DNA from: an uncultured Burkholderiales bacterium
GTDB lineage: Bacteria; Pseudomonadota; Gammaproteobacteria; Burkholderiales; Burkholderiaceae_C
Reading direction: 5' to 3'
NCBI GenBank assembly: GCA_903831655.1
Contig: CAIKYO010000314.1
Location: 1 to 48,817 of the forward strand
Length of the DNA stretch: 48,817 nt
Below are positions 8,204 through 20,205 of the stretch, piece by piece. The notes beneath the pieces were generated by a model. The model searched no databases and was not told the origin of the DNA. It was given only the letters and a program-made list of their open reading frames with translations. Numbering within the stretch: position 1 is the first letter of the stretch; each line of letters starts with the position of its first letter. The position numbers and the translations under genes are program-made.

Positions 8204-8506
8204 TTAGACAATGGGTTGGTGCACGGTGACGAGCTTGGTGCCATCGGGAAAGGTGGCTTCAACTTGGATGTCTGGAATCATGTCTGCCACACCATCCATC
8301 ACTTCGCTTGCGCTCAAAACCCCTCTGGCCTCATTCATCAGTTGAGCCACGGTTTTGCCCTCCCTTGCCCCTTCCATGACAAATGCACTAATAAGAGCAA
8401 TCGATTCAGGGTAATTCAGTTTGAGCCCTTTGGCCCTGCGTCTTTCAGCCAACAAGGAGGCTGTGAAGATGAGCAATTTATCTTTTTCGCGAGGAGTTAG
8501 TTCCAT
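8204..8506 (-). CDS. ureA: Urease gamma subunit UreA
   Basis: UreA is the 100-residue gamma chain of urease. It begins [20 protein letters not shown] and contains the conserved [18 protein letters not shown] and [21 protein letters not shown]-like segments (here [12 protein letters not shown]). The reading frame stays open further upstream, but the ATG at 8506 matches the family N-terminus and lies about 31 bases after the start site predicted for a sigma-54 promoter. I see no clear Shine-Dalgarno sequence before it. It is the first gene of ureABCEFG. No ureD lies upstream, where many relatives carry it. Confidence 0.95.
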
Positions 8507-8548
8507 GGCTTTAGGAAATGAAGTGATTGGATATAAAAAAGGGAAGGC

Positions 8549-8563
8549 GCAACTTATGTGCCA
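8549..8563 (-). promoter_or_regulatory. Sigma-54 promoter for the urease operon
   Basis: Read on the minus strand the sequence is TGGCAC-ATAAG-TTGC, an exact match to the sigma-54 -24/-12 consensus with the required five-base spacer. The predicted start site is near 8537, giving a leader of about 31 bases before ureA. The match is seen directly; use of the promoter is inferred. Confidence 0.82.
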
Positions 8564-8663
8564 TCCAAAAGATATGTTAAACCCAAAAAGGGAATGCAAC
8601 TTGAACTGGTTTTAAATGGATTATGCAATTTGGTTTCAATTCAATGCATTGAAGTTTGCCAAG

Positions 8664-8742
8664 GTTACCAAATTGGTGCATTTGCAAATAGTCCATCGAT
8701 TTGATTTGGTGCGCAAATCAACCATTGTTAGATTTTGGTGCA
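8664..8742. promoter_or_regulatory. Cluster of three NtrC-type binding sites shared by ureA and urtA
   Basis: Three TGGTGCA-type half-sites occur at 8674-8680 (TGGTGCA), 8707-8713 (TGGTGCG) and 8736-8742 (TGGTGCA). They are spaced 33 and 29 bases apart, close to three helical turns each. The first has the best dyad (GTTACCA-AAT-TGGTGCA, 8664-8680). They sit roughly 80-150 bases upstream of the predicted urtA start and 130-200 upstream of the ureA start, normal enhancer distances for NtrC. The ntrB-ntrC genes lie 9-11 kb to the right. Confidence 0.7.
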
Positions 8743-8791
8743 GAAAACCTTCGGATTTCAAGGTTAAGGTTGATTATTGTTTTACACAAAC

Positions 8792-8806
8792 TGGCACAAG
8801 GATTGC
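8792..8806 (+). promoter_or_regulatory. Sigma-54 promoter for the urt operon
   Basis: TGGCAC-AAGGA-TTGC matches the sigma-54 -24/-12 consensus exactly, with a five-base spacer. The expected start is near 8818, about 70 bases before the urtA ATG, which itself has GGAG at 8877-8880. It faces away from the urease promoter at 8549-8563. Confidence 0.83.
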
Positions 8807-8886
8807 CTAGTTAAATTGTTGGCCAACTGTTTTGTAAGTGTTGGCTTGCAAACAATTCACCTCTATCACTTGAACTGGAGTTTTTA

Positions 8887-10158
8887 ATGATTAATCGTCG
8901 TAGACTGACCGCTTTGGCAACTGCCTCAGCATTGGCTTTGAGCGCCTTTGGATGGAATACCGCTAGCGCAGCGGAGGACACCATTAAAGTGGGTGTTCTA
9001 CACTCGTTGTCTGGCACCATGGCCATCTCTGAGTCTGTGCTCAAAGATACCATTTTGATGGCGATTGATGAAATCAATGCCAAGGGTGGAGTTTTGGGTA
9101 AGAAGTTGGAGCCAGTGGTGGTTGATCCAGCTTCAAACTGGCCTTTGTTTGCAGAGAAAACAAAACAGTTGCTGACACAAGATAAGGTGGCCGTCATTTT
9201 CGGTTGCTGGACCTCTGTGAGCCGTAAATCTGTGTTGCCAGTTGTTGAAGAGTTGAATGGCTTGCTCTTTTACCCCGTTCAATACGAAGGTGAAGAGTTG
9301 TCTAAGAATGTTTTCTACACTGGTGCAGCACCAAATCAGCAAGCTATTCCTGCTGTTGACTATTTGATGAGCAAAGACGGTGGCGCTGCTAAGCGTTGGG
9401 TTTTGTTGGGTACTGATTATGTATACCCCAGAACAACCAACAAAATTTTGCGTGCATATTTGCACAGCAAAGGTGTGAAAGATTCTGACATCGATGAGAA
9501 ATACACACCGTTTGGTCACTCTGATTACCAGACCATCGTTGCTGACATCAAGAAATTCGCTGCTGGTGGTAAAACTGCTGTTGTGTCCACCATCAATGGT
9601 GACTCAAACGTTCCCTTCTACAAGGAATTGGGTAACGCTGGTTTGAAAGCCAAGGATGTTCCAGTGGTTGCTTTCTCCGTGGGTGAGGAAGAGTTGCGCG
9701 GTGTTGATGCCAAGCCTTTGGTGGGTCACTTGGCTGCATGGAACTACTTCATGAGCTTGAAGAATCCTACCAACACTGAGTTCATCAAGAAATGGTCTGA
9801 TTATGCAAAATTGCACAACATTCCTGGTCACAAAGACAAGCCTTTGACCAACGATCCAATGGAAGCTTCCTACATTGGTATCAACATGTGGAAACAAGCG
9901 GTTGAAAAAGCAAAATCCACTGATGTTGATAAAGTCATTGCTGCGATGGCAGGACAGACTTTCAAAGCTCCTAGTGGCATCACATCCATGATGGATCCAA
10001 AGAACCACCATTTGCACAAGTCAGTCTTCATTGGTGAAGTCAAGGCTGATGGTCAGTTCAATGTGGTTTGGCAAACTCCTGGTCCTGTGAAGGCCAAGCC
10101 ATGGAGTCCATACATTGAAGGCAATGACAAAAAGCCTGATGAGCCTGTAACCAAATAA
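8887..10158 (+). CDS. urtA: Urea ABC transporter substrate-binding protein UrtA
   Basis: UrtA is the periplasmic urea receptor of the high-affinity UrtABCDE transporter. It has an N-terminal signal peptide with RRR and a hydrophobic stretch, probable cleavage after residue 28 or 29 (ASA-AED), then a type I periplasmic-binding fold. UrtA-like segments include TIKVGVLHSLSGTMAISE, FGCWTSVSRKSVLPVVE and NGLLFYPVQYEGEE. At 423 residues it is the usual length. GGAG lies six bases before the ATG. It is the first gene after the sigma-54 promoter and is followed by a strong hairpin terminator, which would let it be made in excess of the membrane and ATPase subunits. Confidence 0.95.
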   Translation: MINRRRLTALATASALALSAFGWNTASAAEDTIKVGVLHSLSGTMAISESVLKDTILMAIDEINAKGGVLGKKLEPVVVDPASNWPLFAEKTKQLLTQDKVAVIFGCWTSVSRKSVLPVVEELNGLLFYPVQYEGEELSKNVFYTGAAPNQQAIPAVDYLMSKDGGAAKRWVLLGTDYVYPRTTNKILRAYLHSKGVKDSDIDEKYTPFGHSDYQTIVADIKKFAAGGKTAVVSTINGDSNVPFYKELGNAGLKAKDVPVVAFSVGEEELRGVDAKPLVGHLAAWNYFMSLKNPTNTEFIKKWSDYAKLHNIPGHKDKPLTNDPMEASYIGINMWKQAVEKAKSTDVDKVIAAMAGQTFKAPSGITSMMDPKNHHLHKSVFIGEVKADGQFNVVWQTPGPVKAKPWSPYIEGNDKKPDEPVTK

Positions 10159-10183
10159 TATTTGGGACTCAACCGGTCAGAGT

Positions 10184-10210
10184 AAGGGCGCTCCGGGCGC
10201 CCTTATTTTT
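10184..10210 (+). terminator. Hairpin terminator between urtA and urtB
   Basis: An 8-bp perfect stem (AAGGGCGC / GCGCCCTT) with a 5-base loop is followed by ATTTTT. It lies 26 bases after the urtA stop. Because urtB-E follow on the same strand with no obvious sigma-54 promoter, it probably attenuates rather than ends transcription. Confidence 0.82.
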
Positions 10211-10297
10211 GCCAAAGCAGAGTACTTTGAGTGCAAAGAAAGTCTTCTTTGGTAAACGTAAAAATAAAATTAATCTATCAATCAACGGCAATTCTTC

Positions 10298-11878
10298 ATG
10301 AAGTCAATCCTCTATTTTTCATTTATTTTGTGTGGATTATTGTTTCATGGCGCAGCTCACTCCCTGAGTACAGATGAGGCCGTGGGGTTGGCCTCGGGAG
10401 CGACAGAGGATCGATTGAAAGTGCTGGCCAAAGTGATGGAGAGTGCGGATGACAGGACAGCCGCGTTCATCAAAGCGCTCTCAGATGACAATGTAAAAAT
10501 ACTAGATCACCAAGTATTTGTGGTTCAAAATGGAAAGTCAATTGATCCCGTAACTGGACAAGAGACGCCCCTGCCTGAGGGCGCAGAGGATGTGGTGAGC
10601 AACAACCGCATGAGAGGGGAGATTGATGCGGCTTTGTCGAGTCTGAGCTTATTTAGCAGCGACGATTCTGTGAGGCTAAAAGCGATCAAGGAAATGATCA
10701 AAGATCCTGATGCCTCACGTATGGGGTTGATTCAAAAAGCCTTGCTCAACGAGAAAAACGAAAAAATAAAGATTCAAATCGAATTTGCAAAGGCCGCCAT
10801 CGAAATCAATGATGAAGATTTGTCCAAGAGAACATTGGCCATTTCACTCCTGAGTGGTAACGCGACCCCAGAGACTGTGAGACTTTTGAATGATCGATTG
10901 CAAACCGAGACCGAGGAGAAGCTGAAAACCCAAATCAAAGATGCTCTCAAGCAAATTCAGGGCAAGCTTGCTTGGGGGGAGAGACTGGGTACGCTTTTCA
11001 CAGGTTTAAGTTTGGGCTCGATCTTGTTGTTGGTGGCATTGGGGTTGGCCATTACATACGGATTGATGGGCGTGATCAACATGGCACACGGCGAGTTGAT
11101 GATGTTAGGTGCTTATGCAACGTACATGGTCCAAGCTTTTTTTCAGCACCATTTCCCGCAGTGGTTTGATGCTTATTTGCCTGTCGCTGTTGTCTTTTCC
11201 TTTTTGACTTCTGCCATGGTGGGTGCGATTTTGGAGAGAGTCATTTTGAAGCATCTCTATGGCAGACCCCTGGAGACCCTGCTGGCGACTTGGGGTATCA
11301 GTTTGATGTTGATGCAAGGGGTGCGGTCTATTTTTGGCGCGCAAAATGTCACAGTTGAAAATCCAGTTTGGATGAGCGGGGGTATTGAGGTTTTGTCCAA
11401 TTTGACACTTCCTTGGAACCGCATTGTGATCATCTTCTTTGCTGCCTTTGTCTTGATTGCCATGTCATTGTTGATTGGCAAAACACGATTGGGCTTGTTT
11501 GTGCGTGGTGTCACGCAAAACCGTCCCATGGCTTCAAGTTTGGGTGTGAATACAAACCGTGTTGACACCTATGCCTTTGCATTGGGTTCAGGAATAGCTG
11601 GGATGGCTGGCTGTGCATTGAGTCAAATTGGAAACGTAGGACCAGATTTAGGTCAGAGCTACATTGTGGACTCTTTCATGGTGGTGGTTCTAGGTGGGGT
11701 TGGGCAGTTATTGGGCAGTGTTTATGCTGCTGTTGGTCTAGGGGTACTCAACAAGTTGTTGGAGGGAGTTGCAGGTGCTGTGCTGGCAAAAATCACTGTG
11801 CTGGTGTTCATCGTGATCTTTATTCAAAAAAGGCCACAAGGCTTGTTTGCCATGAAGGGCAGAAGTGCAGAAACATGA
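10298..11878 (+). CDS. urtB: Urea ABC transporter permease UrtB
   Basis: UrtB is one of the two LivH-type inner-membrane permeases of the urea importer. The 526-residue protein has a signal peptide (about residues 1-22), then a ~200-residue soluble, mostly helical HEAT-like N-terminal region characteristic of UrtB. The multi-spanning permease domain starts near GLSLGSILLLVALGLAITYG. Permease signatures include GVINMAHGELMMLGAYATY and ETLLATWGISLMLMQGVRS. It follows the urtA terminator by about 90 bases and precedes urtC by 64. Confidence 0.95.
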   Translation: MKSILYFSFILCGLLFHGAAHSLSTDEAVGLASGATEDRLKVLAKVMESADDRTAAFIKALSDDNVKILDHQVFVVQNGKSIDPVTGQETPLPEGAEDVVSNNRMRGEIDAALSSLSLFSSDDSVRLKAIKEMIKDPDASRMGLIQKALLNEKNEKIKIQIEFAKAAIEINDEDLSKRTLAISLLSGNATPETVRLLNDRLQTETEEKLKTQIKDALKQIQGKLAWGERLGTLFTGLSLGSILLLVALGLAITYGLMGVINMAHGELMMLGAYATYMVQAFFQHHFPQWFDAYLPVAVVFSFLTSAMVGAILERVILKHLYGRPLETLLATWGISLMLMQGVRSIFGAQNVTVENPVWMSGGIEVLSNLTLPWNRIVIIFFAAFVLIAMSLLIGKTRLGLFVRGVTQNRPMASSLGVNTNRVDTYAFALGSGIAGMAGCALSQIGNVGPDLGQSYIVDSFMVVVLGGVGQLLGSVYAAVGLGVLNKLLEGVAGAVLAKITVLVFIVIFIQKRPQGLFAMKGRSAET

Positions 11879-11942
11879 TAAATGATTCAGTTTTAAACGT
11901 TTTGCGCGTTCACGCTCCATTGACACATTAAAGAGACCCATC

Positions 11943-13055
11943 ATGAATTCATTGATCAATCACCAACCCAAACCCATGCTAAGTGCCGTTGGCTGGAGGG
12001 TGTTTACGATTTGCGTATTGCTCTTTTGCGTCGGTGCACCCGTCATGAACTTGGTTTTGCCGGCCACAAGTTTTTTTCACATGAGCGATTTTGCCGTGGC
12101 ATTGATTGGAAAGATCATGTGCTACGCAATTTGTGCATTGGCCATGGACTTGATATGGGGTTACACCGGTATTTTGTCTTTAGGGCATGGACTCTTTTTT
12201 GCGCTAGGCGGGTACATCATGGGGATGTATTTGATGCGTCAAATTGGCACAGATGGAAATTACAAATCTGAATTACCCGATTTCATGGTGTTTTTAGATT
12301 GGAAGAAATTTCCGTGGCAGTGGGCTTTGAGTGATAACTTTGTGGCCACTTTGGTGTTGATTGTGGTGGTTCCCGCTTTATTGGCCTGGATATTTGGCTA
12401 CTTTGCCTTTCGCTCAAGAATCAAAGGCGTGTATTTTTCTATCATCACGCAAGCCATGACCTATGCGGCGATGCTGTTGTTCTTTAGAAACGAGACGGGC
12501 TTTGGAGGAAACAATGGTTTCACAGACTTCAAGCGAATTTTGGGTGTTCCTATTGCCACGCCTGAGATGCGCATGACCTTGTTTGTGATCACTGCAATGG
12601 TTTTGTTCGGTTTTTATTTACTTGCCAAATGGATCATCCATTCCAAGTTGGGCCGTGTGCTGATGGCGATCAGAGATGCAGAGAGCCGGGTCATGTTCTC
12701 AGGCTACTCTCCTATGCCTTATAAACTTGCGATTTGGACGTTGTCTGCGCTCATGTGTGCTGTGGCTGGTGCGCTCTACGTTCCTCAAGTTGGCATCATC
12801 AATCCCAGCGAAATGAGCCCCGCCCAATCCATTGAAATTGCGATCTGGACTGCGGTGGGTGGCAGGGGCACTTTAATCGGTCCCATCGTTGGAGCTTTTT
12901 TGGTCAACTTAGCAAAGAGTTGGCTTACAGTGTCAGCGCCTGAGTTTTGGCTGTATTTTTTAGGTGCATTGTTCATTTTGGTGACCCTCTTTCTGCCTCA
13001 AGGTGTCGTTGGGTTCGTCCAAAAACACATTAAAAAGCATGGAGGTCAACAATGA
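11943..13055 (+). CDS. urtC: Urea ABC transporter permease UrtC
   Basis: UrtC is the LivM-type partner permease. Its 370 residues contain eight or more hydrophobic segments and the family motifs DLIWGYTGILSLGHGLFFALG, IKGVYFSIITQAMTYA and AGALYVPQVGIINPSEMSP. The ATG at 11943 follows GAGACC-type purine-rich sequence. The stop overlaps the urtD start by four bases (ATGA), so the permease and ATPase are translationally coupled. Confidence 0.95.
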   Translation: MNSLINHQPKPMLSAVGWRVFTICVLLFCVGAPVMNLVLPATSFFHMSDFAVALIGKIMCYAICALAMDLIWGYTGILSLGHGLFFALGGYIMGMYLMRQIGTDGNYKSELPDFMVFLDWKKFPWQWALSDNFVATLVLIVVVPALLAWIFGYFAFRSRIKGVYFSIITQAMTYAAMLLFFRNETGFGGNNGFTDFKRILGVPIATPEMRMTLFVITAMVLFGFYLLAKWIIHSKLGRVLMAIRDAESRVMFSGYSPMPYKLAIWTLSALMCAVAGALYVPQVGIINPSEMSPAQSIEIAIWTAVGGRGTLIGPIVGAFLVNLAKSWLTVSAPEFWLYFLGALFILVTLFLPQGVVGFVQKHIKKHGGQQ

Positions 13056-13930
13056 CACCTGAACTCATGGAGCAAGGTGCTCAAAGACTCGTCGACATTG
13101 AGCAAAAGCGCGCTAGCCAACAGAGCACTGAATCTGGAGGGCGCACAGCCTCCTATGCAAGGCTACACAAGAGCAATGAGATCGACACCACACATGGACG
13201 CATCCTTTATCTAGAGGATGTGAACGTGAGCTTTGATGGATTCAAAGCCATCAATCACCTGAGCGTGGATATTGCACCGGGTGAGTTGCGCTGTGTCATT
13301 GGTCCGAACGGTGCAGGTAAGACCACCATGATGGACATCATCACGGGAAAGACCAAGCCTGATTCTGGGCAAGTTTTTTTGGGTAGCACCATTGACTTGC
13401 TCAAATACAGTGAGCCTGAAATTGCACAGCTTGGAGTGGGCCGTAAGTTCCAAAAGCCCACCGTCTTTGAGCAACTCACTGTGTTTGAGAATTTGGAATT
13501 GGCTCTCAAGACCAACAAGAATGTGAAATCTTCTTTGTTCTTTAAGTTGGATTCAGAGAAGTCAGATCGATTGGCCGAGGTACTTGGCACCATTCAGCTC
13601 GATTCTGAGGTGTACCGAGATGCTGGTCATTTGAGCCATGGTCAAAAGCAGTGGCTTGAAATTGGAATGCTATTGATGCAGGACCCCAAATTGTTGCTTC
13701 TCGATGAGCCAGTTGCCGGAATGACCGACCAAGAGACGGCCAGGACTGCTGAGCTTTTCTTAACGCTCAAAGGCAAGCACTCTTTGATGGTGGTAGAGCA
13801 TGACATGAGTTTCATTGCTACCATTTCTGAAAAGGTCACTGTATTGTGCGACGGAAGCGTATTAGCTGAAGGCACTTTGGATCAAGTGCAAAACGATGAG
13901 CGTGTAATCGAAGTTTATTTGGGGCGATAA
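13052..13930 (+). CDS. urtD: Urea ABC transporter ATPase UrtD
   Basis: UrtD is the LivG-type ATP-binding subunit. It shows Walker A GPNGAGKT (residues 84-91), Q-loop GRKFQKPTVFEQLTV, signature LSHGQKQWLEIG, Walker B LLLLDEPVAGM and the switch histidine in VVEHDMSF. The first ~50 residues before GRILYLEDVNVSFDG are polar and low in conservation, an N-terminal extension outside the ATPase fold. The 4-base overlap with urtC supports the annotated ATG at 13052 over a later start. The next gene, urtE, begins immediately after the stop. Confidence 0.95.
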   Translation: MTPELMEQGAQRLVDIEQKRASQQSTESGGRTASYARLHKSNEIDTTHGRILYLEDVNVSFDGFKAINHLSVDIAPGELRCVIGPNGAGKTTMMDIITGKTKPDSGQVFLGSTIDLLKYSEPEIAQLGVGRKFQKPTVFEQLTVFENLELALKTNKNVKSSLFFKLDSEKSDRLAEVLGTIQLDSEVYRDAGHLSHGQKQWLEIGMLLMQDPKLLLLDEPVAGMTDQETARTAELFLTLKGKHSLMVVEHDMSFIATISEKVTVLCDGSVLAEGTLDQVQNDERVIEVYLGR

Positions 13931-14626
13931 ATGTTTTTAAAAATTGATCAACTCAATCAGTATTACAGCGGTTCTCATATTTTGCGCTCCGTCTCCATGG
14001 AGGCCAAGTTGGGGGAGGTGACCGTGCTTTTGGGTAGGAATGGTGTTGGGAAAACCACATTGATCAAATCTCTCATGGGATTGGTGCCCATCAAGAGCGG
14101 AGAGATTGAACTGGATGGTGTCTCCATTAAGCGCATGGCCCCCTACCAAAGGGCGAAAGCAGGCATTGGATTTGTCCCTCAGGGTAGAGAGATTTTTGGA
14201 AGGTTGAGCGTTCTTGAAAACCTTCAAATGGGCTTGGCCACCCAGTCTGCCAACGCCAAGGTTCCAGAAGAACTCTTTGAGTTGTTTCCCATATTGCGTG
14301 AGATGCAGCATCGCCGAGGTGGTGACTTATCGGGTGGTCAACAGCAGCAACTGGCCATTGCAAGAGCGTTGGCTTCCAATCCGAAATTGTTGGTTTTGGA
14401 TGAGCCCACAGAGGGCATTCAACCCAGCATCATCAAAGACATAGGTCGGGTTATCAAAATGCTGGCCAAGCGAGGCAACATGGCCATCTTGCTGTGTGAG
14501 CAGTATTACGATTTTGCTGAAAGCTTGGCCGATCACTATTTTGTCATGGAGCGCGGTGAGGTGGTGGCAAGTGGTCCGGGCGCTGAAATGGTGAGCAAAG
14601 GCATTCGTCAAATGGTGGCAATCTAA
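13931..14626 (+). CDS. urtE: Urea ABC transporter ATPase UrtE
   Basis: UrtE is the LivF-type second ATPase of the urea importer. It has Walker A GRNGVGKTT (residues 35-43), GFVPQGREIFGRLSV, signature LSGGQQQQLAIARAL, Walker B LLVLDEPTEGIQPS and switch histidine replaced by a Gln/Cys context typical of LivF-type proteins (ILLCEQYYDF). Its start directly abuts the urtD stop (TAAATG). At 231 residues it has the expected size. No clear terminator follows in the 74 bases before the next gene. Confidence 0.95.
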   Translation: MFLKIDQLNQYYSGSHILRSVSMEAKLGEVTVLLGRNGVGKTTLIKSLMGLVPIKSGEIELDGVSIKRMAPYQRAKAGIGFVPQGREIFGRLSVLENLQMGLATQSANAKVPEELFELFPILREMQHRRGGDLSGGQQQQLAIARALASNPKLLVLDEPTEGIQPSIIKDIGRVIKMLAKRGNMAILLCEQYYDFAESLADHYFVMERGEVVASGPGAEMVSKGIRQMVAI

Positions 14627-14700: not shown

Positions 14701-15579
14701 ATGAACACCATTCAGTCCCCATTGAAGCACTCTGAAGTGCAAAAGCCCAAATTCGGTTTGATCATCGTAGGTGACGAAATCTTATCTGGTAAGCGCGCCG
14801 ATAAGCACATGCCCAAAGCCATTGAGTTGCTCTCACAAAGAGGACTCTCTTTGTCTTACGCCGAATACGTGGGAGATGATCCAAAGCGTATTCAGTCCGT
14901 CTTGCAGCGTGCTTTTTTGAGCGGAGACATTGTGTTTTCTTGTGGTGGCATTGGAGCCACACCAGATGACCACACGAGACAATGCGCGGCCAAGGCGTTG
15001 GGTGTTGAATTGGCTTTGCACCCTCAGGCAGAGGAACTCATTCGACAACGCATCAAGGACCAAGCTTTGGAAGCGGGAAAGCCTTATGAGCCCGATCTGC
15101 CTGAACACATCCATCGCTTGAACATGGGCCAGTTCCCACTCGGTGCTGAGATCATTCCCAACCCGTACAACAAAATACCTGGCTTTCAGTGCTCAACCAG
15201 GGATCCCCAAGTGCTGGCCCAACATCCCTGGGCTCGTGTTTATTTTTTGCCGGGTTTCCCCGTCATGGCCTGGCCGATGATGGAGTGGGTACTAGATGAA
15301 TATTGCCAAGCTTGGTTTGAAAAATCATCTTTCACAGAGCACTCTGTGATTGTGTATGGCTCCATGGAGGCCTCACTGACACCCATGATGCTCAAACTCG
15401 AGGAGCAGTTCTCCCTCATCAAAGTCTTCAGCCTCCCAAGTGTCGACCACCCCGTTCATGGTCGGCACATTGAACTCGGAGTCAAAGGCCCCCCCGATGC
15501 GGTCGCTCAAGCTTATCCAGCGCTGCTTGCCTACTTGCATGAATTTGGTGCGTCATTAGGCCCTGAATTGGTGCGTTAA
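14701..15579 (+). CDS. CinA N-terminal/molybdopterin-binding-fold protein
   Basis: This 292-residue protein has the MoCF/CinA N-terminal domain: FGLIIVGDEILSGKRADKH, VGDDPKRIQSVLQRA and the FSCGGIGATPDDHTRQ loop. Stand-alone CinA-N proteins are related to nucleotide pyrophosphatases (ADP-ribose/CoA) and to the molybdopterin adenylyltransferase fold; the precise substrate here cannot be told. The C-terminal half (about residues 150-292) lacks the PncC-type NMN deamidase domain. It lies between urtE and the glnA control region on the same strand. A role in nitrogen metabolism is possible from position only. Confidence 0.85.
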   Translation: MNTIQSPLKHSEVQKPKFGLIIVGDEILSGKRADKHMPKAIELLSQRGLSLSYAEYVGDDPKRIQSVLQRAFLSGDIVFSCGGIGATPDDHTRQCAAKALGVELALHPQAEELIRQRIKDQALEAGKPYEPDLPEHIHRLNMGQFPLGAEIIPNPYNKIPGFQCSTRDPQVLAQHPWARVYFLPGFPVMAWPMMEWVLDEYCQAWFEKSSFTEHSVIVYGSMEASLTPMMLKLEEQFSLIKVFSLPSVDHPVHGRHIELGVKGPPDAVAQAYPALLAYLHEFGASLGPELVR

Positions 15580-15607: not shown

Positions 15608-15624
15608 TGCACTATAATGGTGCA
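15608..15624 (+). promoter_or_regulatory. NtrC-binding palindrome upstream of glnA
   Basis: TGCACTATAATGGTGCA is an almost perfect NtrC dyad (TGCACY-N5-TGGTGCA). Its centre is about 158 bases upstream of the start site predicted from the sigma-54 promoter at 15749, close to the distance of the classical glnA enhancer sites of enteric bacteria. Confidence 0.85.
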
Positions 15625-15748: not shown

Positions 15749-15763
15749 TGGCACAAATTCTGC
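15749..15763 (+). promoter_or_regulatory. Sigma-54 promoter for glnA
   Basis: TGGCAC-AAATT-CTGC has the -24 element intact and a -12 element with one deviation (CTGC for TTGC), correct spacing. The predicted start is near 15775, giving a 40-base leader before the glnA ATG at 15815, which is preceded by AGGAGAA. Confidence 0.75.
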
Positions 15764-15814: not shown

Positions 15815-17230
15815 ATGGCAAAGACCGTCGCTGATGTGATGAAGCAAATCAAGGATGACGAAGTTAAATTCGTTGATTTTCGCTTCACTGATACCCGTGG
15901 AAAAGAACAGCACGTGAGCGTGCCAATTTCTGCTTTTGATGAAGGCAAATTCACCGATGGCCATGCCTTTGATGGATCCTCTATCGCTGGCTGGAAGGGC
16001 ATTGAGGCATCAGACATGTTGCTCATGCCTGATGCCAACACAGCCTTCATCGACCCCTTTTTCCAAGAGCCAACATTGGTTCTGTCATGCGACGTTCTCG
16101 AACCAGGTGACGGTAAAGCCTACGACCGCGATCCTCGCTCCATTGCCAAGCGCGCTGAGGCTTACCTCAAGGCCAGCGGCATTGGTGACACAGCCTACTT
16201 TGGTCCAGAGCCAGAGTTCTTCATCTTTGATGATGTGAAGTGGGGCAATGAGATGTCTGGAGCTTTTTTCCAGATCGACGAATACGAAGCACCCTGGAAT
16301 TCCTCCAAGACCATTGAAGGCGGTAACAAAGGTCACCGTCCCACAGTTAAAGGTGGTTACTTCCCCGTGCCTCCAGTGGACAGCACACAAGACATGAGAG
16401 CAGAGATGTCCTCAATTCTTGAAGAGATGGGCATCCCCGTTGAGGTGTTCCACCACGAAGTGGCTGGCGCAGGTCAAAACGAGATTGGTACCAAGTTCTC
16501 AACTTTGGTTGAGAGAGCCGATTGGACGCAAAAGTTGAAGTATGTGGTTTGGAACGTGGCTCACGCTTACGGAAAAACAGCCACCTTCATGCCCAAGCCT
16601 TTGGTTTGCGATAACGGCTCAGGCATGCACGTTCACCAGTCAGTTTGGAAAGACGGTAAAAACCTCTTCGCAGGCTCTGGCTATGCAGGTTTGAGCGATA
16701 CTGCCCTCTACTACATTGGTGGTGTGATCAAGCACGCTCGTGCATTGAACGCCATTACCAACCCCACCACCAACAGCTACAAGCGCTTGGTACCTGGGTT
16801 TGAGGCTCCCGTGAAATTGGCTTATTCAAGCCGCAATCGCTCTGCTTCGATTCGCATTCCTTTCGTTGCCAGCGACAAAGGTCGTCGCATTGAGTCTCGT
16901 TTCCCTGATCCCATGGCCAACCCCTACTTGTGCTTTGCTGCATTGTTGATGGCTGGACTTGATGGCATCAAGAACAAGATTCATCCTGGAGAGCCAGCAA
17001 CCAAAGACTTGTACCACCTCCCACCCGAGGAAGATGCATTGGTCCCAACCGTTTGCCACAGCTTGGATCAAGCTTTGGAGTATTTGGACAAAGACCGTGC
17101 ATTCTTGACTCAAGGTGGTGTGTTCACTGACAGCATGATTGATGCTTACATTGAACTCAAAATGGGAGAAGTGACTCGCTTTAGACAAGCCACTCACCCC
17201 ATTGAGTACGATATGTATTACTCACTGTAA
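15815..17230 (+). CDS. glnA: Glutamine synthetase, type I
   Basis: GlnA makes glutamine from glutamate, ammonia and ATP in the cytoplasm as a dodecamer. The 471-residue protein matches GSI-beta: [30 protein letters not shown]-like segment ([15 protein letters not shown]), the ATP-binding [16 protein letters not shown] and [14 protein letters not shown]. The regulatory adenylylation tyrosine lies in DLYHLPPEE (Tyr400), so control by GlnE is likely. AGGAG sits just before the ATG. An upstream NtrC site and sigma-54 promoter indicate induction under nitrogen limitation, and a strong terminator follows before ntrB. Confidence 0.98.
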
Positions 17231-17264
17231 AACACCCGACCCTTCTTTTGAGGGATCAATCAAA

Positions 17265-17293
17265 GGGGGCGGAAAGACCGTCCCCTTTTTTTT
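17265..17293 (+). terminator. Rho-independent terminator after glnA
   Basis: GGGGGCGG-AAAGA-CCGTCCCC forms an 8-bp stem with one G-U pair and is followed by eight T. It lies 35 bases past the glnA stop and ends about 23 bases before the chosen ntrB start, so it should limit read-through from glnA into ntrBC. Confidence 0.93.
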
Positions 17294-17315
17294 ATGCAAA
17301 AAAACGCTGAGACAC

Positions 17316-18416
17316 ATGCCTTCCTCCATTAAATCAAGTACCCGTGCTCGCTCTCTTGCCAAAACCGAAGGCACGCAGAGCTTGCTTCACTTGCTTGCAA
17401 CTTTGATTCTCTTGGTCAACGCCGATGGAAAAATTGAGTTTGTCAATTCGGCGACAGAGGAGGTCTTTGGCGTACCGAGTAAATCCATCGTTGGTACTTC
17501 ATTGTTGGAGTATTTCATCGATGCGCAAAGCATAGCCAATGCATTGGCCAGTTCACAAAAGGAACATTTTTCAGCACTTCGTTTTGATGGCATGCTCAAG
17601 CGCTCAAGCGTCGAGTCCATGCCTGTTCATGTGATCGTCTCGCCCTCCAATCACGAGAGAGAAGTTTTGGTGGAGCTCATTCCCTTTGACCAAATGGCCA
17701 AACAAGAAAGGGAAGGTCGAATCATCGATCAAGCGCGTGCCAATAAAGAGCTCATTCGAAATTTAGCTCACGAAATCAAGAACCCATTGGGTGGTATTCG
17801 AGGCGCAGCGCAATTGTTACAACTTGAGATCGAATCCAAGGATTTGATCGAGTACACGCAAGTCATTATCCGAGAGGCGGATCGACTTCAAACGCTGGTT
17901 GACCGATTGTTGGCCCCCCATCGTCGCCCACAAGTGGTCACCAAGGTCAATATTCACGAGGTCTGTGAACGGGTTCGGTCTTTGATATTGGCTGAGTTTC
18001 CAAGAGGCTTGAAGGTCAGGCGTGACTATGACACCTCCTTGCCTGACTTCAATGGGGATGTAGAACAACTCATCCAAGCTGTGCTCAATATTGCTCACAA
18101 TGCGGCACAAGCCCTCAGTCAAAAAATTGCAACCTCAGAGGCTCAAATCATTTTGCAAACCCGTGTGGCCAGGCAAGTTACTTTTAGCAAACAACGCAAT
18201 CGATTGGCATTGGAATTGCATGTCATTGACAACGGTCCAGGGATTTCAGAGTCAATCAAAGACAGGCTCTTTTATCCCTTGGTCTCTGGTCGGGAGGGTG
18301 GATCGGGTTTGGGTTTGAATTTGGCGCAAACATTCATTCAACAGCACCACGGATTGATTGAGTGCGAGAGCGTGCCAGGTAAAACAGATTTTAAGATTTT
18401 GATACCACTGCAATGA
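17316..18416 (+). CDS. ntrB: Nitrogen regulation sensor kinase NtrB
   Basis: NtrB (GlnL, NRII) is the cytoplasmic kinase/phosphatase that controls NtrC phosphorylation in response to PII. It has an N-terminal PAS domain (LILLVNADGKIEFVNSATEEVFG), the HisKA box NLAHEIKNPLGGIRGAAQLL with phosphoacceptor His152, the N box NIAHNAAQAL, and G boxes DNGPGIS and GGSGLGLNLAQ. No membrane segment is seen. The frame is open back to 17202, inside glnA, but that longer version would span the glnA terminator. The ATG at 17316 gives 366 residues, a normal NtrB length, so I chose it. Confidence 0.94.
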   Translation: MPSSIKSSTRARSLAKTEGTQSLLHLLATLILLVNADGKIEFVNSATEEVFGVPSKSIVGTSLLEYFIDAQSIANALASSQKEHFSALRFDGMLKRSSVESMPVHVIVSPSNHEREVLVELIPFDQMAKQEREGRIIDQARANKELIRNLAHEIKNPLGGIRGAAQLLQLEIESKDLIEYTQVIIREADRLQTLVDRLLAPHRRPQVVTKVNIHEVCERVRSLILAEFPRGLKVRRDYDTSLPDFNGDVEQLIQAVLNIAHNAAQALSQKIATSEAQIILQTRVARQVTFSKQRNRLALELHVIDNGPGISESIKDRLFYPLVSGREGGSGLGLNLAQTFIQQHHGLIECESVPGKTDFKILIPLQ

Positions 18417-18462
18417 ATTTGACACATTGAGCCTAAGTAAGAATTGACAAGGTGAAATAAAA

Positions 18463-20205
18463 ATGAAACCCATTTGGATCGTAGATGATGATCAATCCAT
18501 CAGATTTGTGATGGAGAAGGCGTTGCTGCGAGAGGGAATGCCAACTCGAAGTTTCACAAACCCAAGAGATGTGCTTTTGGCTTTGGAGCGTGTGAGCGAG
18601 GAAGAGTTGCCTCAAGTGTTGGTGAGTGACATTCGAATGCCCGGAGGATCGGGACTTGATTTGTTGCAAGAGATCAAGTCCAAGCAACCTCAAATTGCCG
18701 TCATCATCATGACCGCCTTCTCTGACTTGGATTCAGCCGTGTCATCCTTTCAAGGTGGTGCGTTTGAGTACTTGCCCAAGCCCTTTGACATTGCAAAGGC
18801 AGTCGAGCTCATCCGGCGCGCCGTGCAAGAGACACTCCAAGAGACAGTGACATCTGTGGGCTCTGAGGAGACACCAGAGATGCTTGGCCAAGCGCCAGCC
18901 ATGCAAGATGTCTTTCGGGCCATCGGTCGATTGAGCCAAAGCAATGTTACGGTGATGATCACTGGTGAGTCTGGGTCGGGTAAGGAGCTTGTTGCAAGGG
19001 CCTTGCACAAGCACTCTTTGAGGGCCAGCGGTTCCTTTGTGGCCATCAACACAGCGGCCATACCAAAAGACTTGTTGGAAAGTGAGCTCTTCGGTCATGA
19101 GCGTGGTGCGTTCACTGGTGCTCAAACCATGAGGCGTGGCCGTTTTGAGCAAGCTGAAGGGGGAACACTTTTCTTAGATGAAATTGGTGACATGCCTTTT
19201 GACCTTCAAACCCGCTTGTTGCGAGTTTTAAGTGATGGCAATTACTACCGTGTTGGTGGCCATGTGAGCATCAAAGCAAATGTGCGAGTGATTGCAGCCA
19301 CCCATCAAGACTTAGAGCAGCGTGTCAAGGAAGGCTCATTCAGGGAGGATTTGTTTCACCGCCTCAATGTGATTCGCCTGCGATTGCCCCCACTGAGAGA
19401 GAGGCGAGAGGATATCTCTGTGCTCACGCACTATTTCTTAAAGCAAAGCGCAATTCAACTTGGGGTTGAGCCCAAACGGATCTCTGATTCGGCTTTGTTG
19501 GTGTTGCAAAACTTTCATTTCCCAGGAAATGTGAGGCAACTGGAGAACATTTGCCATTGGCTCAGTGTCATGGCCCCCACCCAAGTGGTGGAGGCCAAGG
19601 ACTTGCCTCCTGAGGTGTTGAAAGATCAGCGTGCACTTGAAGCGGCAGCTCATCAATCCGTTCAACTCCATTCATTCTCAGCACCAACAGCTTCAAGTAC
19701 CCTTGCAGATCAGATGCCCCAAGGGGATGTTTCAACCCATCGCTTTGAATCAACCCACGCGGGCATTGCAAGCACTCCTGAGTCAGTGTTGAATGTGTTT
19801 GGTGAAATCATCTATAAAAATGAAGGTGTTGCACCACTCTCTCCCAGTGGCATGCCCTCAGCGCATGCACTTGAAGCCTTTGACGCTAGCGCTCAAGAGC
19901 AAATGGAGCGATCGCTCTCACATCCATTCTCCTCAGTCAACCCAGTTGGCGCTGCAAACTCCCATGCCCATGGTGCCTCCTCTTCCTTGGGCAGTTGGGA
20001 AAGTATTTTGGAGTCAGAGGCAAGTGCTTTGCTAGCAGCCGGCAGAACCGATGTGTGGGATGTTTTAACGCGTCGCTTCGAGTCCAAACTCATTCAAACA
20101 GCACTGCTCAATACTCGGGGGCGCAGAATTGAGGCGGCACAAAAGCTAGGCATTGGACGCAATACCATTACGCGAAAAATTCAAGAGTTGGGTTTAGATG
20201 ACTAA
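18463..20205 (+). CDS. ntrC: Nitrogen regulation response regulator NtrC, with long linker
   Basis: NtrC (GlnG, NRI) is the sigma-54 enhancer-binding activator. It has a receiver domain (acid pocket DDD at 8-10, phosphoacceptor Asp56, Lys106), AAA+ domain with Walker A GESGSGKE (168-175), the sigma-54-contacting GAFTGA loop (215-220) and Walker B GGTLFLDEIGD. A Fis-type helix-turn-helix ends the protein (AAQKLGIGRNTITRKIQEL). At 580 residues it is about 100 longer than enteric NtrC. The excess is a Ser/Ala/Pro/His-rich linker between the AAA+ and DNA-binding domains (about residues 390-520). Its likely targets are the sites before ureA, urtA and glnA. Confidence 0.95.
   Translation: MKPIWIVDDDQSIRFVMEKALLREGMPTRSFTNPRDVLLALERVSEEELPQVLVSDIRMPGGSGLDLLQEIKSKQPQIAVIIMTAFSDLDSAVSSFQGGAFEYLPKPFDIAKAVELIRRAVQETLQETVTSVGSEETPEMLGQAPAMQDVFRAIGRLSQSNVTVMITGESGSGKELVARALHKHSLRASGSFVAINTAAIPKDLLESELFGHERGAFTGAQTMRRGRFEQAEGGTLFLDEIGDMPFDLQTRLLRVLSDGNYYRVGGHVSIKANVRVIAATHQDLEQRVKEGSFREDLFHRLNVIRLRLPPLRERREDISVLTHYFLKQSAIQLGVEPKRISDSALLVLQNFHFPGNVRQLENICHWLSVMAPTQVVEAKDLPPEVLKDQRALEAAAHQSVQLHSFSAPTASSTLADQMPQGDVSTHRFESTHAGIASTPESVLNVFGEIIYKNEGVAPLSPSGMPSAHALEAFDASAQEQMERSLSHPFSSVNPVGAANSHAHGASSSLGSWESILESEASALLAAGRTDVWDVLTRRFESKLIQTALLNTRGRRIEAAQKLGIGRNTITRKIQELGLDD

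Follow-up and report, generated by a model that had tools for sequence, protein, structure and literature searches.

A predicted bidirectional NtrC/sigma-54 control region between urease and urea transporter genes in a Burkholderiales bacterium, and an alternative palindrome-bearing state in its relatives

Overview

The 380 bp separating ureA from urtA (positions 8507-8886) in a 48,817-base stretch of DNA from an uncultured Burkholderiales bacterium, hereafter the window, very probably form a bidirectional nitrogen-controlled region, in which NtrC and sigma-54 would drive the urease (ure) genes on one side and the urea transporter (urt) genes on the other. This had been proposed in a first-pass annotation of the letters alone, and it is now supported by the conservation of both promoters, the enrichment of NtrC-like sites in relatives, the linkage to glnA and ntrBC, and the presence of rpoN. 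Comparison of the DNA before urtA across the family suggests that urea uptake is placed either under this general nitrogen switch or under a separate sensor system, and hardly ever under both. If this is true, the 250 bases before urtA would reveal for each species whether urea uptake is driven by starvation or by a dedicated sensor, and such a clean and repeated either/or would constitute a natural experiment in regulatory circuit replacement. Freshwater bacteria of the Limnohabitans type, to which the genus of the window probably belongs, are abundant, and in lakes urea serves as a source of nitrogen.

Precedents for nitrogen control of urea genes

Inactivation of ntrC in B. cenocepacia H111 changed the expression of ureC by -5.2 and of urtB by -5.9 log2 units (PMC5491218). 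This organism is, like that of the window, a betaproteobacterium, and the drop affected urea import and urease genes alike, but the accessible part of the report describes neither promoter anatomy nor a shared head-to-head region (PMC5491218). In H. seropedicae, a sigma-54 promoter was noted upstream of urtA, and expression of urt and ure under nitrogen deprivation was suggested (PMC3093359). The urtABCDE-ure cluster of this species thus resembles the window in the promoter before urtA, but there urt lies upstream of ure and, in the accessible part of that paper, one promoter is named, whereas the window has two predicted promoters leaving a single gap in opposite directions. Predicted NtrC regulons of the Proteobacteria include ureABC and urtABCDEF as taxon-specific targets, which the accessible part of the study places in Alteromonadales, Oceanospirillales, Rhizobiales, and Rhodobacterales rather than in Comamonadaceae or Burkholderiales (PMC5343134), and sigma-54 control of urease genes has been predicted mainly in alpha- and betaproteobacteria (PMC12316311). 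Because the action of NtrC and sigma-54 on ure and urt is already known from other betaproteobacteria, the bidirectional region should be regarded as a new arrangement of known control. Divergent sigma-54 promoters with activator sites between them occur in E. coli at zraP-zraSR and hyc-hyp, which resemble the window in their two outward promoters and differ from it in activators and functions.

Gene content of the window

Genes for urea use and nitrogen assimilation are clustered in the window, ure reading leftward and urt rightward, with glnA, ntrB, and ntrC after urt. The features relevant to this analysis are as follows.

8204..8506, minus strand: ureA, urease gamma, first gene of the ureA-B-C-E-F-G run (8506 down to 4084)
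8549..8563, minus strand: exact sigma-54 core TGGCAC-N5-TTGC, toward ureA
8664..8680, plus strand: best NtrC-like palindrome of the gap, GTTACC-N5-GGTGCA, 9/12, containing the half-site at 8673
8706..8712, plus strand: second TTGGTGC half-site, right half only
8726..8742, plus strand: third NtrC-like site, 8/12, containing the half-site at 8735
8792..8806, plus strand: exact sigma-54 core TGGCAC-N5-TTGC, toward urtA
8887..10158, plus strand: urtA, urea ABC transporter binding protein, first gene of urtABCDE (8887-14626)
14701-15579: molybdopterin-binding-domain gene, between the urt operon and glnA
15608..15624, plus strand: NtrC palindrome TGCACT-N5-GGTGCA before glnA, 11/12
15749..15763, plus strand: sigma-54-like core TGGCAC-N5-CTGC before glnA, one mismatch (such matches are at chance level window-wide)
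15815..17230, plus strand: glnA, glutamine synthetase
17202..18416, plus strand: ntrB, nitrogen sensor kinase
18463..20205, plus strand: ntrC, presumed activator, with a sigma-54 AAA+ domain and a Fis-type HTH

UreF was assigned by Pfam. The genome itself (G000; 3.54 Mb in 463 contigs) encodes sigma-54 (rpoN; PF04552 match, E 1.4e-63), and ntrB and ntrC lie in the same window as the gap. The glnA-ntrB-ntrC genes (15815-20205) follow urt with one gene between, an order found elsewhere in L019 only among the best 80 of 588 named loci, many of which have shorter flanks. The nearest named UrtA relatives, again among the best 80 of 588, are mostly Comamonadaceae. The ureD gene, required for urease maturation, stands apart from the other ure genes on another contig (C53:4455-5060, L129); in many relatives it lies about 6-11 kb downstream of the urtA start on the opposite strand. 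The predicted NtrC has 580 aa, of which about 140 aa, judged by eye to be rich in Ser and Ala, form a linker from the AAA+ lid (to 394) to the HTH (from 537), while UrtB (10298-11878; 526 aa) matches a permease from residue 232-233 only and so carries a long N-terminal extension.

Two outward-facing sigma-54 cores

The two opposite-facing TGGCAC-N5-TTGC elements noted at the outset were found again at the same coordinates and are the only exact matches in the 48,817 bases, pointing outward. Both display the invariant GG and GC at the fixed spacing of a sigma-54 promoter. Dinucleotide shuffling of 8507-8886 yielded exact cores on both strands in 0/2000 trials and any exact core in 4/2000. One-mismatch matches in the window are at chance level (7 counted, 7.6 expected), which leaves the exact pair alone as noteworthy. 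Across the whole genome (3.54 Mb), 17 exact cores were counted against 5 for the backwards pattern; two are those of ure and urt, 12 fall within predicted ORFs, and three are intergenic, 36-49 bp upstream of genes that by eye encode an ABC transporter ATPase, a FlgB-like protein, and a flagellin-like protein. One exact core, at C53:24552-24566 (L002) on the ureD-bearing contig, precedes an ABC-transporter-ATPase-like gene by about 42 bp.

The promoter-to-gene distances, described earlier as sensible, were confirmed: 42 bases separate the end of the core from the ATG on the ure side and 80 on the urt side. With transcription taken to begin 12 bases past the -12 element, the start sites implied by the predicted -24/-12 elements would give leaders of about 30 nt for ureA and 69 nt for urtA.

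Conservation and layout in relatives

Relatives were drawn from the best 80 of 588 named UrtA loci and from the genus of the window, in which 61 genomes were searched and 30 loci, the window included, were listed. Usable upstream sequence was available for 109 loci, with the window counted once and L081 left out because its sequence begins inside urtA; the 109 include two contigs twice (L019/L102 and L036/L118), and 11 of the regions recur in a separate sample of 200 family genomes, 137 of which encode a close UrtA (E <= 1e-180).

The compact head-to-head arrangement of ureA and urtA was observed in 46 of the loci listed (44 of them distinct). These comprise 18 named loci, among them the Limnohabitans loci L035, L066, and L069, together with 27 of the other 29 loci of the genus and the window itself. 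The first-pass description of this layout as less usual holds for the family sample, where compact genomes are a minority (29/137 by ureA positions), but not for the genus, in which it is the usual state (27/29 other loci among those listed; ureA was not found in the flank of the remaining two). The accompanying statement that many relatives carry urt and ure in the same direction was not borne out, since 36 of the 40 named loci with any ure gene in the flank (best 80 of 588) read opposite to urt and only four (L031, L073, L079, and L095) read the same way.

The comparison with related genomes that the annotation had recommended showed the cores to be kept and NtrC-like sites to be enriched. 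Among the 46 compact loci listed, all carry the urt-facing core at <=1 mismatch, exact in 37, and it ends 49-81 bases before the ATG in every one of them; the ure-facing core is present in 31/46 at <=1 mismatch (exact in 4) and in 41/46 at <=2. The backwards pattern used as a control occurred in 0/46 at <=1 mismatch and in 1/46 in each direction at <=2. Five of the 46 (L037, L106, L109, L110, and L113) lack a ure-facing core even when two mismatches are allowed. The compact genomes of the family sample gave similar figures at <=1 mismatch, namely 29/29 for the urt-facing and 21/29 for the ure-facing core.

The distance from the ure core to the ATG is 23-70 bases in 31 of the 41 compact loci that have this core at <=2 mismatches, and the spacing of the window (42) is ordinary. 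In the other ten (L103, L104, L105, L107, L108, L111, L114, L116, L127, and L128) it is a mere 12-15 bases, which leaves almost no leader and renders the promoter, the start codon, or a leaderless mode of translation questionable. Such short distances hint that the urease mRNA has no leader, that translation starts further downstream, or that the promoter is not in use.

NtrC-like sites and the proposed mechanism

Three TTGGTGC half-sites, starting at 8673, 8706, and 8735 with spacings of 33 and 29, were confirmed between the two cores, and three such half-sites arose in 0/2000 dinucleotide shuffles of the gap. Scored as full NtrC palindromes, the sites of the gap are weak, the best score of 9/12 being reached by 321/2000 shuffles; full-palindrome scoring being non-significant in the window, the case for NtrC rests on the relatives and on ntrBC-glnA. 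Sites of >=9/12 were found in 37/46 compact gaps against 17.5% of shuffles, and sites of >=10/12 in 17/46 against 1.5% (among the loci listed). The aligned relatives L019, L100, and L101 bear palindromes of 10-11/12 at the position of 8706..8712, and therefore the second site of the window looks decayed.

We infer that NtrC is the activator and that the cluster is shared by both promoters. Upon nitrogen scarcity, phosphorylated NtrC, encoded by ntrBC in the same window, would bind the TTGGTGC cluster (8664-8742) and activate sigma-54 polymerase at both -24/-12 elements, so that ureABCEFG would be transcribed from the leftward promoter and urtABCDE from the rightward one. With both operons switched on, urea import and hydrolysis would rise together.

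Three other explanations of the region were weighed. That the cores are chance matches is scarcely credible: one-mismatch cores are indeed no commoner in the window than expected, but the exact pair never arose in shuffled gaps, and the cores are conserved in relatives where the backwards pattern is absent from all 46 compact loci at <=1 mismatch. It is very unlikely that another sigma-54 enhancer-binding protein takes the place of NtrC. The poor fit of the window's sites to the NtrC palindrome (9/12 at best) would favour such a protein, but the GGTGC half-site is common to the gap and to the 11/12 site before glnA-ntrBC, close relatives have 10-11/12 sites in the gap region, and NtrC dependence has been demonstrated in a betaproteobacterium, B. 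cenocepacia (PMC5491218).

A more serious contender, though still doubtful, is that both promoters depend on sigma-54 with separate enhancers, the three half-sites serving urtA only and ureA relying on weaker, nearer sites. In relatives, most NtrC-like sites fall some 70-125 bp before the urt core (range 27-211), as separate enhancers would predict, and an additional half-site pair nearer ure in L105, L107, L108, L127, and L128 means that a single shared cluster is not general; the frequent retention of a sigma-54 core by urease where urt has none points the same way. The window, however, has no NtrC-like site of >=8/12 on the ure side of the cluster, and enhancers of the NtrC class are known to work at a distance and in both directions. 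A cluster shared by both promoters is thus the preferred reading for the window.

A palindrome and a LuxR-type two-component system in other relatives

Outside the compact layout, a sigma-54 core at <=1 mismatch was found within 600 bp before urtA in 7/63 of the loci listed. In several of these non-compact loci two genes stand between ure and urt, one for a hybrid histidine kinase (about 1170 aa) and the other for a LuxR-type response regulator (about 337 aa); the regulator was found in the fetched flank of 28/63 non-compact and 0/46 compact loci, some flanks being cut by contig ends. A match to the response regulator was found in none of the 61 genus genomes, the window's own included (E <= 1e-40), in 120/200 family genomes (E <= 1e-30, paralogues included), and in 20/150 genomes of the order across several families (E <= 1e-60). 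The regulator gene starts <=15 kb from ureA or urtA in 91/96 genomes, near both in 48, ureA only in 32, and urtA only in 11.

The genomes with a close UrtA were assigned by hand to a compact class and to classes with a strong, weaker, or no regulator match ('neither'), with one urtA taken per genome. In the 400 bp preceding urtA, the core at <=1 mismatch was present in 29/29 compact, 0/88 strong-regulator, 1/6 weaker, and 9/14 'neither' genomes, against 0, 1, 0, and 0 for the backwards control. The layout as cause of the sigma-54 core was rejected, as the core occurs in 10/20 non-compact genomes lacking a strong regulator (the 9/14 and 1/6 just given). The corresponding tree test of layout against core over the 109 loci mostly gave three pairs the same, none opposite, and two with no difference (median p 0.25); being non-significant, it was given no weight as evidence, and in the later test the response regulator took the place of layout.

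By k-mer counting in 87 regulator-bearing upstream regions, a palindrome, TACGCC-N4-GGCGTA, was found. It occurs in 87/88 strong-regulator genomes at <=2 mismatches and in 84 at <=1, at a median of 110 bp before the urtA start codon (range 70-183), and at <=2 mismatches it was found in 0/29 compact genomes, 0/46 compact loci, and nowhere in the window. Its position is specific: in 1.38 Mb of named loci (best 80 of 588), 53/56 matches at <=1 mismatch fall in the 450 bp that precede urtA. Exact copies precede urtA in 66/137 UrtA genomes (60 strong, with three and three in the other classes). Genome-wide, the exact palindrome occurs in 86/200 family genomes, as a single copy in 70 by hand count, and a few core-type genomes also have exact copies (four in G057, for example); since many genomes have the backwards palindrome about as often or more often, it is the position before urtA that counts and not the number. 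G158 has eight exact copies, of which six share their inner bases (TGAC/GTCA) and may belong to a repeat element. The 87 regulator-bearing upstream regions show no excess of NtrC-like sites (>=9/12 in 22/87 against 21.5% of shuffles; >=10/12 in 0/87 against 2.9%).

The likeliest role of the palindrome is to bind the LuxR-type response regulator, which most of the genomes bearing it encode, usually close to ure or urt. Where the regulator is more divergent, in the three genomes G140, G243, and G171, TACGAC-N4-GTCGTA stands in its place, and this covariation supports, without proving, binding of the regulator to the palindrome. The five members of the 'neither' class without a core also carry the palindrome (G087, G100, G159, G171 with two mismatches, and G251 with one), and in two of them, G087 and G159, no kinase or regulator was found within about 5 kb upstream of urtA.

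Predicted urease promoters where urtA lacks the core

The region before ureA was covered in 41 strong-regulator genomes and 12 others. A core at <=1 mismatch precedes ureA in 19/40 regulator-bearing genomes without a urtA core (backwards control 0/40), and at <=2 mismatches in 35/40 of the same set (backwards control 11/40). Nine of the 19 lie only about 12-15 bases before the ATG, with almost no leader. Urease thus often seems to remain under the nitrogen switch where control of uptake has passed elsewhere, a result weaker than that for urt.

Mutual exclusion and apparent recurrence of the swap

When the 250 bp before urtA were scored in the 137 family genomes, 39 had the core only, 97 the palindrome only (<=2 mismatches), one neither, and none both; restricting the palindrome to <=1 mismatch left it in 91/137 and raised the number with neither to seven. 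Letter-shuffled regions of this length contained the core at a rate of 0.7% and the palindrome (<=2 mismatches) at 1.4%. The addition of new distinct fetched loci (among the loci listed), with duplicates removed, brought the total to 233 distinct regions, of which 84 had the core only, 146 the palindrome only, three neither (G128, L090, and L095), and none both. In G128 the contig carries a mere 65 bases ahead of urtA, which accounts for its place among the three; elsewhere in that genome, on a different contig, there is an exact palindrome. When the search was extended to 400 bp, one core genome (G199) also showed a two-mismatch palindrome, 312 bases away.

The recurrence of the swap was examined on a quick UrtA tree, built from this single protein for 70 of the 137 genomes and with many weak branches, in which the regulator changes state at least nine times and the core at least eight. 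The tree holds all compact and all 'neither' genomes and hence under-samples regulator-bearing ones; G171 and G251 were labelled regulator-bearing in it. When six independent pairs on supported branches were repeatedly drawn at random, regulator and core changed in opposite directions in a mean of 5.8 pairs and in the same direction in none (median p 0.031; range, 0.031-0.0625). In addition, the genera g82, g92, and g97 each have one sampled genome of either state.

It is unlikely that the exclusion of core and palindrome reflects shared ancestry only, with no functional replacement. The clustering of states on the UrtA tree, the non-significant first test of layout against core, and the reliance of the second on a quick tree with weak branches would all sit well with ancestry, but the opposite behaviour of the independent pairs, the three genera that hold both states, and the absence of both elements together from all 233 regions argue against it. 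The fullest reading of these data is one to which we give about even chances: that the uptake modules are interchangeable and exclusive, NtrC and sigma-54 on the one hand and a transporter-like hybrid kinase with a LuxR-type regulator, chiefly targeting the urtA palindrome, on the other; that about six or more swaps have occurred, urease often staying with sigma-54; and that the kinase and its regulator would respond to urea itself or to some related compound. Were urea sensed directly, the swap would turn uptake from starvation-driven to substrate-driven. A published account of this alternation between core and palindrome with its two-component system was not found in the open-access literature.

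The candidate sensor

The kinase was searched for in the fetched loci. The example at L030:2447-5944 has a multi-spanning N-terminal half by hydropathy plus a Cys-rich stretch; no Pfam or PDB sequence match was found for this half, which by eye we take to resemble nucleobase-type transporters. If the reading of a swap is right, the kinase, as yet uncharacterised, would be a candidate for sensing urea through an input domain that resembles a transporter; that urea is what it senses is a guess made from gene position.

A described counterpart is CrbS/CrbR, which joins a transporter-fused hybrid kinase to a LuxR-type regulator acting through an inverted repeat (PMC5715377) and in this resembles the relatives' putative urea system. 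The two differ in that CrbS has an SLC5-STAC input and acetate genes as its targets (PMC5715377), whereas the relatives' kinase has no N-terminal Pfam match and the palindrome, TACGCC-N4-GGCGTA, stands before urtA. In the accessible part of that work, the instances given of the CrbR ACTU inverted repeat begin with TAC or TAA, and the TACGAC-N4-GTCGTA variant of G140, G243, and G171 is close to the Pseudomonas instances (PMC5715377).
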